Assembly (NCBI RefSeq): GCF_000520735.1
Contig: NZ_ASSC01000217.1
Location: 1 to 35,694 of the forward strand
Direction of reading: 5' to 3'
Source: Paenibacillus forsythiae T98
GTDB lineage: Bacteria; Bacillota; Bacilli; Paenibacillales; Paenibacillaceae
DNA: 35,694 nt
The notes under the pieces are model-generated. The model worked only from the letters and a program-made list of their open reading frames with translations, searched no databases and had not been told where the DNA came from. Below, one piece after another: positions 1,657 through 24,598 of the stretch. Both the position numbers and the translations under genes were made by a program. Position 1 is the stretch's first letter, and each line of letters starts with the position of its first letter.

Positions 1657-2395
1657 CCACATTCTCCTTGAGCCCAATGTGTAATGCCGCGATGCCTCCA
1701 GTCAAGGGGAAGGATTCCACGCGCTCCAGTCCGGTTTCACGGAAGATCCGCTCCAGCTGCTTTCGGTCCGGGAACAGCGCAAGCGATTCGGGGAGCCATC
1801 TGTATTGCTCGTAGCTCTTCGCGAACAGCTTGCCCAGCAGCGGCAGCATCCGTGTAAGATAGAAATAATAAATGCCTTTGAAAGGCTGTGCCGTAGGCTT
1901 GGACAACTCAAGGCAGACAACCATGCCTCCGGGCTTCACCACGCGCATCATTTCATGAAGCACCTGAACGGGATCGGGCACATTGCGCAGACCAAAGCCG
2001 ATGGTAGCGTAATCGAAGGAGCTGTCACCGAACGGAAGGCTCATTGCGTTGCCCTGTACAAGGGAAATCCGGTCGCCAAGCCCCCGCTGCTCCACCTTGC
2101 GGCGCCCGACGGCGAGCATGCCCTCGCTGAAATCGAGCCCTATGACGCCGCCGGTTCCGCTGCTCTCGGCCATCGCGATGCTCCAGTCGCAGGTACCGCA
2201 GCAGAGATCAACCGCGGTATCTCCTCGGCGCATGGCCATCTTGTCCATGGCAAACCGCCTCCAGGCCTTGTGGCGCCGGAAGCTCAGTATATCGTTCATC
2301 GTATCGTACTTTCCGGCGATTTTTTCAAATACGGAATGGACAAACTGTTCCTTCGGCTTGACTCCGTTATCGCCGGCAACTGTTGACTTGTTCAT
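1649..2395 (-). CDS. menG: Demethylmenaquinone methyltransferase MenG (UbiE family)
   Basis: 248 residues, class I SAM-dependent methyltransferase. The SAM-binding motif VDLCCGTCDWS (near residue 62) and the UbiE signature GFGLRNVPD (near residue 133) are present, as is the N-terminal VFEKIAGKYDTMNDILSF box. It performs the last step of menaquinone synthesis, C-methylation of demethylmenaquinone. It starts seven bases after the hepS stop; the GGGGAGG site lies rather far (about 12 bases) from the ATG. The order hepS-menG is the same as in B. subtilis, where hepT follows; here ubiA follows instead. Confidence 0.95.
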   Translation of the reverse strand: MNKSTVAGDNGVKPKEQFVHSVFEKIAGKYDTMNDILSFRRHKAWRRFAMDKMAMRRGDTAVDLCCGTCDWSIAMAESSGTGGVIGLDFSEGMLAVGRRKVEQRGLGDRISLVQGNAMSLPFGDSSFDYATIGFGLRNVPDPVQVLHEMMRVVKPGGMVVCLELSKPTAQPFKGIYYFYLTRMLPLLGKLFAKSYEQYRWLPESLALFPDRKQLERIFRETGLERVESFPLTGGIAALHIGLKENVDV

Positions 2396-15647: not shown

Positions 15648-16301
15648 CTAACGGTTGCGGAAATCAAACTGCCGCTCGAAACAGTAGCGAATAATTTTCT
15701 GGCGTTCGCCGTCCAGGATGTTCACAAATTTGAGCATGGCCAGACTTCGCCCGTTCTCCAGTTTCTTCATCCGCACAACCTCAGCCTCAAATTGAGCATG
15801 CTCGCTGGAGCCGTTACGGTAAGGGAGAAGAATCCAGCACTGCAGATGGTCGCCCATTTCGAGCGGCACGCTTATATCCGTCATGAACGAAGTTCCGCCG
15901 CCGCTGATATCTTCGGTGCGAACGAGGAAGCGAATGCCCGCTGCCGTTCTGGCCGCCAGTTCAAGCTCCGCGCTGACGCGCAGGAAGCTCCGTCTTTGAA
16001 TTTTCAGAATCTCATCCTTCGCGGGCTTGTGCACCCGGACCATTCGGATAACGTCTTCCTTGAAACCGAGCACATGCGTGTAAAAATAATTTTTGATTCC
16101 GCCCTCGGTCATAAAATAAACCGACAGTTCATCCCCGATATGCAGTTTCTTCAACCGTCCGTTGCTTTCCTGCATCGGAATTTCAATCAGAAACGCCTCG
16201 TCTTCCACTTCCGCTATTCTGGATCGGTATTCAACTTCCGTTTCGGAGGCGTCGCTGGAGGCTTCCTGGATGAACAGATTGTCGTTGATTTTGGGATACA
16301 A
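15648..16301 (-). CDS. ypfA: YcgR-like PilZ-domain c-di-GMP receptor (MotI/YpfA type)
   Basis: 217 residues from TTG at 16299-16301, chosen because GGCGGTG lies six bases upstream and relatives begin YPKIN; the frame is open to another TTG at 16316. N-terminal YcgR domain (about 1-95), then a PilZ domain with both ligand motifs: RSFLR (104-108) and DISGGG (131-136), so it should bind c-di-GMP. In B. subtilis this protein stops the flagellar motor. Position between cmk and ypeB matches B. subtilis, but the ypfB gene between them is not seen. Confidence 0.85.
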   Translation of the reverse strand: MYPKINDNLFIQEASSDASETEVEYRSRIAEVEDEAFLIEIPMQESNGRLKKLHIGDELSVYFMTEGGIKNYFYTHVLGFKEDVIRMVRVHKPAKDEILKIQRRSFLRVSAELELAARTAAGIRFLVRTEDISGGGTSFMTDISVPLEMGDHLQCWILLPYRNGSSEHAQFEAEVVRMKKLENGRSLAMLKFVNILDGERQKIIRYCFERQFDFRNR

Positions 16302-16343
16302 GCATGTCACCGCCAATGAAATTAGTAAGATATTCTAAAGCCG

Positions 16344-16500: not shown

Positions 16501-17856
16501 TTATAATTGTTGCTGGGCGCCGGATGCGGTTCGGATCTCCTCGACCGCTTCTTCCATGCCGGAGTCCGCATTCAGATAAATACGATACTTAGAGCCGTTG
16601 ATCCGGCCGCCGAATTCGTAGGTAAGCACCTGTTCGCCGTCATCGTTCTCAATCAAGGCAGGACGGTTGTACAGCTCCTTTAAATCCGGGTTCAGCTTCT
16701 TCCGGGCTTCGGCAAGACTCATCTTGGGCTTGGCGATTTTGCGCTTCTCCTGGTGCTCATTGACATAGTCGCTGGACTGAAAACCGGTGGTATCGCCGGT
16801 GTCGAGCCCAGAGCGGACCGTTATTTTTTCGGGATAGATAAGCACTCCGTCCTGCTTGGTCACAAATGTGAAATTGGCCATATTGCCGTAACGGTCGGCG
16901 CTGACGGGCGTCATGTCCGAGTATCCCTTGCGTTTCAGGAATTCGCCGGCCTTGGCGGCCGCATCATCCATCGATACCCGGGGGGCTCCAATCTCGCGGT
17001 TATTATTGTAAGAAATCAGCAGCCCGCCTCTGGTTGTAAAATCCATGCTTATCGTTTCTTTCGCTCCGCTTACCGTCGCTGTGTAGGTTGGCCATTCCGT
17101 TCCTTTTCCGTTCTCGGTAACCTGCACCTTGGCCCCGCTGCCGGCATCCGCGTATTTCAGCGCCTTGCGGCGGATATCATCCACAGAGACGGGCGGACCG
17201 TCCAGCTTTTTGACCGAACGTTTGTCATAGACGCTGGCCACCGATGGCCCCCAATCGAGCTCCGGATACGCGCTCACCCTTTTGTCCACCGTTTTGAAGC
17301 CGTCGATAATCGTATTGTCCTCGGCTTTCTTCTCCGTAGCCAGAGCCGATTCAACGTCCATCCACCGGAGGTGGTTCGAAATAACCTTGTTCTGCACCTC
17401 CTGAAGGTCCTTGGAAATTTCGCCGGAGCTTTTATACAAAGCCGTCAGGTTCTTCATTTCGCCGTCAGTCAACGGTTTGTCAGTATAGTCGCGCACCGCC
17501 GCTTTATAAGAGAAGCTGGAAATCTTGGAGAGAAACTCCTCCGTCTTGCTGAAAGGCAGCAGGGTCAGCGGAAGCTGATTAATCTCGTTCTGCGCCTCGC
17601 TGGTAAGCCGCCACACATTCGTAAGAAATTTACGGTGCATTCCATCGGAAGTGGAGCTGACGGCAAGCACATTGCCAAGTTCGCCATGCAGCCGCTCCAT
17701 GTGATAGGACAAATCATGGAAGGACCGCTGGTATTGGTTCTCGGCCTTCAGCAGCACCGCGTTTTTCTCCTGATTCTCCTGATAACCCCATACAAGCGCG
17801 CCGATGAGCAAAAGCGCGGTCAACGGGAACAATACGGCACTCAATCTTCTGTACAT
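16501..17856 (-). CDS. ypeB: Germination protein YpeB
   Basis: 451 residues, normal for YpeB. One N-terminal membrane segment (about 7-24) followed by an exported part: a long helical region to about residue 200, then PepSY-like repeats (around 215-290, 300-370 and 380-445, e.g. VSMDDAAAKAGEFL and MSLAEARKKL). YpeB is needed for stable incorporation of the cortex-lytic enzyme SleB in spores. sleB normally sits directly upstream; it does not here. A sigma-G-like promoter (17894-17923) lies 38 bases upstream of the ATG, fitting forespore expression on its own. Confidence 0.95.
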   Translation of the reverse strand: MYRRLSAVLFPLTALLLIGALVWGYQENQEKNAVLLKAENQYQRSFHDLSYHMERLHGELGNVLAVSSTSDGMHRKFLTNVWRLTSEAQNEINQLPLTLLPFSKTEEFLSKISSFSYKAAVRDYTDKPLTDGEMKNLTALYKSSGEISKDLQEVQNKVISNHLRWMDVESALATEKKAEDNTIIDGFKTVDKRVSAYPELDWGPSVASVYDKRSVKKLDGPPVSVDDIRRKALKYADAGSGAKVQVTENGKGTEWPTYTATVSGAKETISMDFTTRGGLLISYNNNREIGAPRVSMDDAAAKAGEFLKRKGYSDMTPVSADRYGNMANFTFVTKQDGVLIYPEKITVRSGLDTGDTTGFQSSDYVNEHQEKRKIAKPKMSLAEARKKLNPDLKELYNRPALIENDDGEQVLTYEFGGRINGSKYRIYLNADSGMEEAVEEIRTASGAQQQL

Positions 17857-17893: not shown

Positions 17894-17923
17894 TAGTTTG
17901 ACATAAACAAAGAGGTCTTATGC
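17894..17923 (-). promoter_or_regulatory. Candidate sigma-G promoter of ypeB
   Basis: Minus strand GCATA, exact 18-base spacer, CAAACTA. Sigma-G consensus is GHATR-N18-CATWHTA; only one base of the -10 differs. Confidence 0.55.
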
Positions 17924-17970
17924 ACCGGCAGAGGCAGAATTGATCGTGCCAAACGGTTCCGGCAAAATGC

Positions 17971-18004
17971 AAAAAAGAGCAGACGCCCTGTCAGGCCTGC
18001 TCTT
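17971..18004 (-). terminator. Terminator after the small cysteine-rich gene
   Basis: AAGAGCAG/CTGCTCTT stem on the minus strand with inner GC pairs, followed by six T. The hairpin includes the stop codon of the 48-residue gene. Confidence 0.8.
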
Positions 18005-18137
18005 CAATCAGAAATCCTTCGGTGCAATTGCACAGACACTGCTTAAAGCCCGTCTGGACAATGCCATGATATTTTATTCCGCGCAGAATATAGCTTTCGC
18101 CGCACTGCTTGCATACGATCCGAACCTTTACACGCAA
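17991..18137 (-). CDS. 48-residue cysteine-rich, zinc-ribbon-like protein
   Basis: Too short for routine gene calling but well supported. TTG start at 18135-18137 with GAGGTG five bases upstream, 48 codons, TGA at 17991. The chain has Cys9 and Cys12 in VCKQCGESYILRG and Cys34, Cys36 and Cys38 in KQCLCNC, which could bind one zinc like a rubredoxin-type or zinc-ribbon knuckle pair; the rest is beta-prone and ends acidic. I recall similar small proteins in spore-formers but no function. It lies between prsW and ypeB, where sleB is found in B. subtilis, and has its own terminator. Confidence 0.75.
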   Translation of the reverse strand: MRVKVRIVCKQCGESYILRGIKYHGIVQTGFKQCLCNCTEGFLIEEQA

Positions 18138-18207
18138 AAAAGACACCTCGCTTCCGGGCGGTATTCCTCTACAGGAGCTATTCCCGGTAACATTGTGTCC
18201 ATCCGCG

Positions 18208-18903
18208 CTACAGATTAACCTCTTCCTCCCGTTTCAGCAAGCGAAAAGGCGACAGGTTATTGGCCCTCGCGACCTTGATCATGCCCCCATACCACAGGAA
18301 GGCCATTAACGGAACGATATACCAAATCCAATAGTTCGCCGTTGTGTTCAGAATGAAGTCGTAGATTCCGTGCCATATCCAGGGAAGGAGAAGCGAAACG
18401 GCCAGAATGCCGCGCCTTTTGACCCCGTTCGAGAATTTGGCTCTGCCGAGATGGTATCCCATCACAACGCCGAACATGGCGTGCCCCGACACCGGAAGAA
18501 GCGCCCGGAGAAACATGGAGCCAAGCGAAGCGTGGCTGTACCAGGCGTACATCACATTCTCAATCGTCGCAAAACCAAGCGAAATCGCCACAGCATAAAG
18601 TATGCCGTCATACGGCTCGTCAAATTCGGTATGATTGTAGATAATGTGATACATCACGAACCATTTCAGGCACTCTTCGACTCCGGCGGAAATCAGGAAT
18701 GAGTCCGTGTAAGGCCCCGTTTCCAGCCCAAGCGTCAAGCCTCTCTGAATAATCATGACCGGAAAGACAATCAGCAGGCCGAGCACAAAAACCTTGAGCA
18801 CCATATGAAGCGGCTCTTGATCGTACTTGTCCTTCAGGTAAAAATAAATCAGCAGAGCAAGTCCCGGTGCCACTGCCGACGAAACCACCGATAACAAAAG
18901 CAC
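18208..18903 (-). CDS. prsW: Intramembrane glutamic protease PrsW
   Basis: 231 residues, GTG start with GGGGAGGT seven bases upstream. Seven or more membrane helices. The active-site motif GVEECLKWF (near residue 72), FATIENVMYAW (near 115) and GHAMFGVVMGYHLG (near 140) match PrsW. In B. subtilis PrsW makes the first cut in the anti-sigma factor RsiW and so activates sigma-W in response to envelope-active peptides. No rsiW-like gene is in the window, so the local substrate is unknown. Its place beside ypeB follows B. subtilis. Confidence 0.95.
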   Translation of the reverse strand: MLLLSVVSSAVAPGLALLIYFYLKDKYDQEPLHMVLKVFVLGLLIVFPVMIIQRGLTLGLETGPYTDSFLISAGVEECLKWFVMYHIIYNHTEFDEPYDGILYAVAISLGFATIENVMYAWYSHASLGSMFLRALLPVSGHAMFGVVMGYHLGRAKFSNGVKRRGILAVSLLLPWIWHGIYDFILNTTANYWIWYIVPLMAFLWYGGMIKVARANNLSPFRLLKREEEVNL

Positions 18904-19026: not shown

Positions 19027-19638
19027 TTATTCCTGGCGTTTGAAAAAGGCGCAAAGTTGCTGAACGGCGTTCTCCGCCATAACCGTCTTGCCGTATTCAT
19101 CCAGCACCGCCTCGGTCACCGAAGACGAATCTCCGAATTCGGCAAGCACAGCCACAAGGGCCGACAACGCGGGTTCCTCGAATTCCTTCGGATCGAAATA
19201 GAAGTACCATTTATCCTGATAAGAGTACAACTTGCCAGCGGAAGTAATATTGCCAATGAGTACATGCGCCGCTTCAACCACGACTTCGAAATCGCGGAAA
19301 GCGTAGACAATGGAGTCCGCTTGTTCAAGGGTAACTTCCATTTCGTAAATTTCATCGGGCAATTCTTCTTCCCCCGGCGCGCCGTACTGATGATCGTATT
19401 TGCCCCGGGTAACGATGACGACCATGCCTTGTGCGGGCAGAGCGAACACTTCCACGGCAAGTGGACCGGTTGCGTCAAATCCGAGTTCAGTATATGCCTG
19501 GTCCATCATTTCCGTAAACAGGTCATGAACTTTGGGGACTTCCTGCCACATGTCTTCTTTCTGGATTCCCCGCTCGCTCAGGTCGTCAAAAGTGAGGAAA
19601 ATCCGTATCTTATCTTGACTTAAACGCTCTATTCTCAT
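19027..19638 (-). CDS. mecA: MecA-family ClpC adaptor (MecA/YpbH)
   Basis: 203 residues. The N-terminus MRIERLSQDKIRIFLTFDDL is the target-binding domain typical of MecA; a linker of about 30 acidic residues follows (GAPGEEELPDE), then the C-terminal ClpC-binding domain (YAFRDFEVVVEAAH to the end). It probably delivers proteins to the ClpCP protease. MecA and YpbH are paralogues; synteny with ypbG and ypbD genes would favour YpbH, but one-copy Bacillales usually call this MecA. AAAGGAGG eight bases upstream of the ATG decides the start against the open frame extending to 19794. Confidence 0.88.
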   Translation of the reverse strand: MRIERLSQDKIRIFLTFDDLSERGIQKEDMWQEVPKVHDLFTEMMDQAYTELGFDATGPLAVEVFALPAQGMVVIVTRGKYDHQYGAPGEEELPDEIYEMEVTLEQADSIVYAFRDFEVVVEAAHVLIGNITSAGKLYSYQDKWYFYFDPKEFEEPALSALVAVLAEFGDSSSVTEAVLDEYGKTVMAENAVQQLCAFFKRQE

Positions 19639-19669
19639 GACAGGATCCTCCTTTTGAAAGCTCATATTC

Positions 19670-24322: not shown

Positions 24323-24598
24323 TGAAAAATGGATCAAGCCAAACCGATGATGGAACAAAGCTACTGAAGGTCTTCAGAGAACCGGCGGGTGGTGCAAGCC
24401 GGTGGCGGACAGTGTGCTTTAGCGCTCCTGAGTTATTGTGTTGAACTAATAGTAGGCACAATCGGATCATCTCCGTTACCAGTGATCCTGTTTACAGGAT
24501 AATGAGGCTGTGTCTGTAAAGGACGCGGTGAATTAGGGTGGTACCACGACAACTCTCGTCCCTTACTGCGGAAGCAGTATGGGGTCGGGAGTTTTTTT
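24323..24598 (+). promoter_or_regulatory. T-box riboswitch leader, probably serine specific
   Basis: AGGGTGGTACCACG (24535-24548) is the conserved T-box. AGAGAACCGG...GCAAGCCGGT near 24378-24403 is the distal part of stem I. The specifier is best read as AGC (24430-24432): it sits five bases before TGAG, the same layout as in the glyQS leader, and AGC is a serine codon, in keeping with serA downstream. The terminator (24551-24593, AACTCTCG/CGGGAGTT, inner ACTGC/GCAGT) ends in seven T. Uncharged tRNA-Ser should favour the antiterminator. One doubt: the T-box reads UGGU, which would pair best with discriminator A, while bacterial tRNA-Ser usually has G (G-U still allowed). Confidence 0.82.

Follow-up and report, generated by a model that had tools for sequence, protein, structure and literature searches.

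The 48-amino-acid CxxC/CxC protein encoded between prsW and ypeB in Paenibacillus forsythiae T98, here called X, belongs to a conserved family that is found in spore-forming Bacilli and tracks ypeB. Judged by its substitution pattern, X is a real gene under purifying selection. Four of its cysteines are invariant and would be able to hold one zinc ion, and in Paenibacillaceae a conserved RNA hairpin lies at its ribosome-binding site. The explanation that we favour, at about even confidence, is that X is not secreted and serves as a zinc-ribbon accessory to the germination module of YpeB and SleB, with its expression gated by this hairpin.

A short conserved gene between prsW and ypeB

The open reading frame of X encodes MRVKVRIVCKQCGESYILRGIKYHGIVQTGFKQCLCNCTEGFLIEEQA and contains cysteines at residues 9, 12, 34, 36 and 38 (Table 1; "the window" is the whole 35,694-nucleotide stretch analysed). 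A preliminary description of this DNA had placed a gene here without naming a strand. Its coordinates hold, on the minus strand, and so do its TTG start with a good binding site (with 6 nt between GAGGTG and the TTG) and its five cysteines, all of which are present in the X of the window. The plus-strand frame across 17991-18137 is not the X gene; a 92-amino-acid open frame runs antisense to X at 17940-18218 (+). A GTG at 18146, in frame and three codons upstream, would give a 51-amino-acid form and was rejected as the start, as it overlaps the Shine-Dalgarno sequence and falls out of frame in relatives whose T-run has 7 or 8 residues against 6. Directly 5' of the conserved RVKV, a TTG, GTG or ATG is retained among Paenibacillus relatives. 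Since the length of the T-run shifts the GTG frame and a start codon before RVKV is kept, comparison among relatives makes TTG most likely the true start codon of X.

Table 1. Features surrounding X in the window
Feature	Position	Strand	Evidence or detail
PilZ-domain gene	15648-16316	-	Pfam test
ypeB (germination protein YpeB)	16501..17856	-	TIGR02889, 2.4e-117, above cut-off
Sigma-G-like promoter of ypeB	17894..17923	-	GCATA, 18 nt, CAAACTA; 67/79 loci
Terminator hairpin over the X stop codon	17971..18005	-	RNA fold
X coding sequence, 48 aa	17991..18137	-	TTG start (18137-18135), TGA stop (17993-17991); homologues, cysteine conservation, selection
Shine-Dalgarno GAGGTG of X	18144..18149	-	6 nt ahead of TTG
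Leader hairpin	18141..18200	-	5' arm GGACAC (18200-18195) pairs with GTGTCT (18146-18141)
prsW (glutamic-type intramembrane protease)	18208..18903	-	NF033739, 4.9e-91, above cut-off
mecA-type gene	19027-19641	-	Pfam / NCBIfam naming

X is present as a single copy in the assembly of the window. At E <= 0.001 it was matched in 135/148 family genomes (18/19 genera), 187/198 order genomes, 154/299 class genomes and 5/299 phylum genomes, four of the last five being family members. The fifth phylum hit (G717) was rejected as a homologue outside Bacilli, as the match covers 20 residues inside a different double zinc-ribbon frame; the 3 kb around it held no ypeB match, and its context is unrelated to X. 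That frame (locus L222, match at 1501-1560 of the locus) encodes 91 amino acids with two CxxC..CxxC zinc-ribbon-like repeats and comes from another class. Spread of X on phages or plasmids was likewise rejected, the searches giving no match. A pattern scan of named genomes found X encoded in 296/351 stretches, the best 80 of which, from Paenibacillus, Cohnella and Fontibacillus, make up the named-locus set used below.

The preliminary description had proposed that homologues with conserved cysteines and synonymous-biased change would confirm the gene. Homologues were indeed found, with cysteines kept, and relative to the nearest named relative, Paenibacillus zanthoxyli JH29, dS was 0.52 and dN 0.009. 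Pooled over 28 related X sequences, pS was 0.70 and pN 0.093, with variation at third codon positions in 46/46, at first positions in 21 and at second positions in 15. Computation thus shows X to be coding and conserved. A lack of homologues, or stops in close relatives, had been named as evidence against the gene: matches occur in 135 of the 148 family genomes, one of these 135 (G145) carries an in-frame stop within X, and a truncated remnant, which is included among the 154 class matches, lies in the distant genome G330. This remnant (L205, about 1938-2003, minus strand) sits between prsW and sleB, and G330 is a lineage that lost X.

A predicted zinc ribbon with two cysteine pairs

The 198 hit loci, several of them duplicated, yielded 135 distinct X sequences for alignment. 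C9, C12, C34 and C36, forming CxxC and CxC, were invariant in 135/135, as were the GE that follows the first cysteine pair and the TG that precedes the second. The fifth cysteine, C38, occurred in only 7/135, and a five-cysteine motif was therefore rejected. The zinc-ribbon-like pattern of the preliminary description is thus narrowed: its CxxC/CxC part stands, together with a confident structural model, and C38 falls outside the motif. AlphaFold2, run with 97 natural sequences, predicted a small beta fold at pLDDT 93.5, with strands at residues 2-9, 15-23, 26-28 and 42-47. This model and the alignment fit a zinc ribbon whose two conserved cysteine pairs could hold one zinc. By eye, the N-terminus is a charged strand, with no hydrophobic stretch or signal sequence.

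Fold matches of X were weak. The best structural neighbours were MCM chains, for which VIA-align gave a Z of at most 4.9, with 46 residues aligned at an rmsd of 2.9. X resembles the N-terminal zinc ribbon of MCM in its small beta fold and two cysteine knuckles, and differs in the CxC of its second knuckle, a Z below 5 and its stand-alone length of 48 amino acids, with no sequence relationship shown. Foldseek gave no match to the X model at E <= 0.001, and a neighbour missing from a fold-search listing proves nothing. X came near no cut-off in Pfam, NCBIfam or PHROGs. Library names obtained for the 97 members were weak and mostly those of zinc-finger families, the best E being 0.0006 in Pfam (XFP_C, 21 members) and 0.0026 in NCBIfam. 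That curated family libraries lack X is no evidence that it escapes gene finders.

A ribosomal origin, with X as a paralogue of bL33, has some appeal because X and the bL33 of the same genome are of near-equal length, share a similar N-terminal strand and carry the first CxxC at an equivalent position; a profile search of the PDB also returned bL33, weakly (E 0.035). However, hhalign of X against bL33 gave a probability of 7% over 16 columns (E 0.005 in a single comparison), BLASTP gave 5/14 identities, and PF00471, which matches the genome's own bL33 at 4.1e-24, had no match in X. With a second knuckle of CxC against the CxxC of bL33, this origin was rejected as very improbable.

In the forespore, the small cysteine-rich proteins Gin (CsfB) and Fin bind zinc and inhibit sigma factors, and by analogy X might be a small zinc-binding anti-sigma factor or forespore switch. 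It is, like them, a small cysteine-rich protein of spore formers, and it adjoins a sigma-G-like promoter. Against this, X had no match to the Gin family PF10764 at E up to 10, and PF10764 itself was found in 173/299 class genomes, including 24/25 X-positive f1 genomes. Since Gin is present alongside X, X does not replace it, and a role as Gin substitute was rejected. The PF10764 search misses some members, as a control with B. subtilis, of which Gin is a protein, gave no match; the same search found none in the window's own genome. Gin was also absent from the 25 of 30 families listed for the 97 X members, and Fin did not appear among the matches of X in the libraries searched, which may lack a Fin model. 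Taken together, we regard an anti-sigma role of this kind as improbable, although less so than the bL33 origin.

X tracks ypeB, not prsW

The order mecA-prsW-X-ypeB-ypfA, in one direction, was found in 78 of the 80 named loci, where ypfA is the name that we take to apply to the PilZ-domain gene. One of the remaining two lacked ypfA, and the other lacked both ypeB and ypfA, within the stretch examined. We also chose 40 distant loci by hand across families. In all 40, ypeB lay 3' of X (39 by tblastn, and L184 by Pfam), and prsW was not seen within the examined stretch in 18. The order X, sleB, ypeB was present in 19/40; the open reading frame used as sleB query was above cut-off for PF07486 and matched TIGR02869 at 9.1e-64, yet below its cut-off.

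The same linkage was computed across genomes. Among the 299 class genomes, with YpeB matched at E <= 0.001, 154 had X and YpeB, none had X without YpeB, 53 had YpeB without X, and 92 had neither; these genomes are related, and the counts are not independent. One genome (G337) had X and YpeB with no PrsW match. The Paenibacillaceae genus g8 (L224-L229, L231-L237) is without ypeB in 13/13 sampled genomes. X is absent from the same 13, all of which kept prsW, and ypfA was found further down the examined stretch in 11. This loss of X and ypeB may be a single deletion. Given the relatedness of the genomes and this possible single event, X goes with YpeB, and how it does so is not shown by these counts.

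YpeB is also found without X. Outside g8, four order genomes had a YpeB match and no X, two of them over the cut-off. The 53 class genomes with YpeB and no X include 7/7 of family f24, which had the best YpeB scores. Together, these genomes show that YpeB as such does not depend on X. In 20 YpeB-positive loci without intact X, sleB lay directly 5' of ypeB in 16, one of which is G330, and the G330 remnant was the only trace of X. X resembles the SleB-YpeB module in sharing its locus, where it precedes either ypeB alone or the pair sleB and ypeB, and differs from it as a non-fixed part (no X match in 53/207 YpeB-positive class genomes), in having no export signal by eye and in lacking the sigma-G-like promoter of ypeB.

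The position next to ypeB could also be inherited gene order, with X serving as a housekeeping or stress zinc ribbon or as a partner of PrsW. Two features agree with this: X has no sigma-G-like promoter of the ypeB type, and in Paenibacillaceae its leader directly follows prsW (median distance from prsW stop to X start 75 nt in 80 loci). However, X was never without YpeB in the 299 class genomes, it stays beside ypeB in the 18 distant loci with no prsW in the examined stretch, it accompanies YpeB in G337 with no PrsW match, and it is gone from g8, where prsW is retained. We consider inherited gene order rather unlikely, and more probable than the anti-sigma role.

Promoters, terminator and the leader hairpin of X

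Between X and ypeB, the sequence GCATA-N18-CAAACTA scored 11 of 12 against the sigma-G consensus in 67/79 loci and in 0/79 shuffled ones, whereas the same score was reached upstream of X in only 4/79. This difference indicates that ypeB has its own forespore-type promoter, which X does not share. A looser threshold (>= 10) gave 25/79 upstream of X against 8/79 shuffled, and 68/79 upstream of ypeB, so the signal upstream of X is slightly above chance and far below that of ypeB. A promoter upstream of X was not supported by sigma-G, -E, -F and -A type patterns, which were found in no more than 2/120 loci, and no sigma-70 site was found in the window region around X.

The preliminary description had also placed a terminator across the stop codon of X. 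RNA folding of 17960-18006 recovered it as a hairpin with a U-tail (-18.1 kcal/mol, z -2.5). Within the same genus group, a terminator overlapping the X stop was found only in the window and in the three relatives closest to it. A conserved terminator after X was rejected, as one was found in just 29/121 loci (shuffle mean 0.65), 23 of the 29 in distant genomes.

Upstream of X, the leader tends toward one long hairpin, which in the window buries part of the Shine-Dalgarno sequence and is followed by a T-run (18141-18136) that enters the start codon. Both arm patterns were present in 63/81 Paenibacillaceae leaders and missing in 18/81. A T-run of at least 4 ending no more than 3 nt from the start codon was also found in 63/81, a slightly different set from the 63 with arm patterns. 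In the latter 63, the Shine-Dalgarno core had a mean pairing probability of 0.93; the whole Shine-Dalgarno sequence was paired in the minimum-energy fold of 41/81 leaders. The leader pattern had one match in the window's genome assembly. These results show that a hairpin overlapping the X ribosome-binding site is conserved in Paenibacillaceae.

The six outer pairs were formed in 377/378 cells of the 63 leaders, compared with a mean of 365 and a maximum of 370 in 500 shuffles. Because the arms were located by sequence pattern, there was little room for variation in most of the six pairs. Pair 3 alone changes on both sides (A-U, G-C). Three leader groups aligned separately (13, 19 and 20 sequences; 52 leaders) gave the same outer stem, and their RNAalifold covariation terms were small (+0.18, -0.92 and -0.15). 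RNAalifold had returned a different pairing when prsW coding sequence was part of the alignment, and that pairing was discarded; the three groups contain leaders only. With mononucleotide shuffles, the mean fold z of the 81 leaders was -4.2; with dinucleotide shuffles, z was -2.9 for the window, -7.6 for L065 and L092, and only -1.4 for the Cohnella leader L099. Per base, the leader folded better than the prsW coding stretch in only 44/63. Rfam 15 gave no family at gathering score in the leader region, and the one hit at E up to 5, on the other strand, was at chance level (11.1 bits, where the gathering score is 40). Elsewhere in the window, a T-box leader lies at 24338-24566 (+); it scores 98.4 bits, which exceeds its Rfam gathering score (93).

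Known leader RNAs include terminator hairpins that also hide a ribosome-binding site. The X leader resembles these in having a hairpin, a U-tract and a buried Shine-Dalgarno sequence, and differs in that its U-tract touches the start codon. A simpler account is that the hairpin is the terminator of prsW only, and its overlap with the Shine-Dalgarno sequence a matter of compact packing with no regulation. Indeed, eight leaders of another lineage (L079, L094, L101-L103, L105-L107) have a plain terminator-like hairpin in the same place with a separate start region after it, and in g8, where X is absent, hairpin-like sequence with a T-run still follows prsW (by eye). However, the overlap is maintained in 63/81 leaders despite an inner stem whose sequence, by eye, varies between leaders. 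We hold the terminator-only account to be a serious possibility, somewhat short of an even chance.

X as a candidate accessory of the germination module

In the reading that we favour, X would fold as a mini beta zinc ribbon that binds one zinc through CxxC and CxC. YpeB and SleB have parts outside the inner spore membrane. The charged N-terminal strand and the lack of a hydrophobic stretch suggest that X is not beside those outer parts; it would act inside the cell, binding protein or nucleic acid, and might tune the production or assembly of YpeB/SleB. In Paenibacillaceae, the X message would be separate from the ypeB transcript. The terminator-like hairpin after prsW would also hide the X ribosome-binding site, and X could then be made from read-through with the hairpin opened, or via a promoter yet unseen. 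The strongest objections are the many YpeB genomes without X and the fact that X does not have the promoter of ypeB. A bolder version, which we think rather doubtful, on a par with inherited gene order, makes X a dedicated cytosolic regulator of cortex lysis that would control YpeB/SleB and is absent from part of the spore-forming Bacilli; the hairpin would hold off X synthesis and might open in response to X itself, zinc status or a forespore signal.

The X family and its place beside ypeB appear undescribed in the literature and libraries searched. In a literature search that covers part of published papers, none of three X signature peptides was found, nor was any paper combining all of ypeB, sleB and prsW, and passages of PMC3533761 and PMC13393411 do not mention an X-like gene. 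Small zinc ribbons, like buried ribosome-binding sites, are an established kind; X adds a protein family absent from the searched libraries.

According to passages in PMC13393411, SleB degrades the spore cortex in germination and YpeB may keep SleB inactive, by a mechanism still under study in Bacillus subtilis. Since the family with the highest YpeB scores, f24, has no X in 7/7 genomes, X may simply have been missing from the model Bacillus in which this work was done. The leader structure gives a direct prediction about X expression. Kept beside ypeB/sleB in 154/299 sampled Bacilli genomes and never found without YpeB, X would be an obvious candidate for a player in germination.
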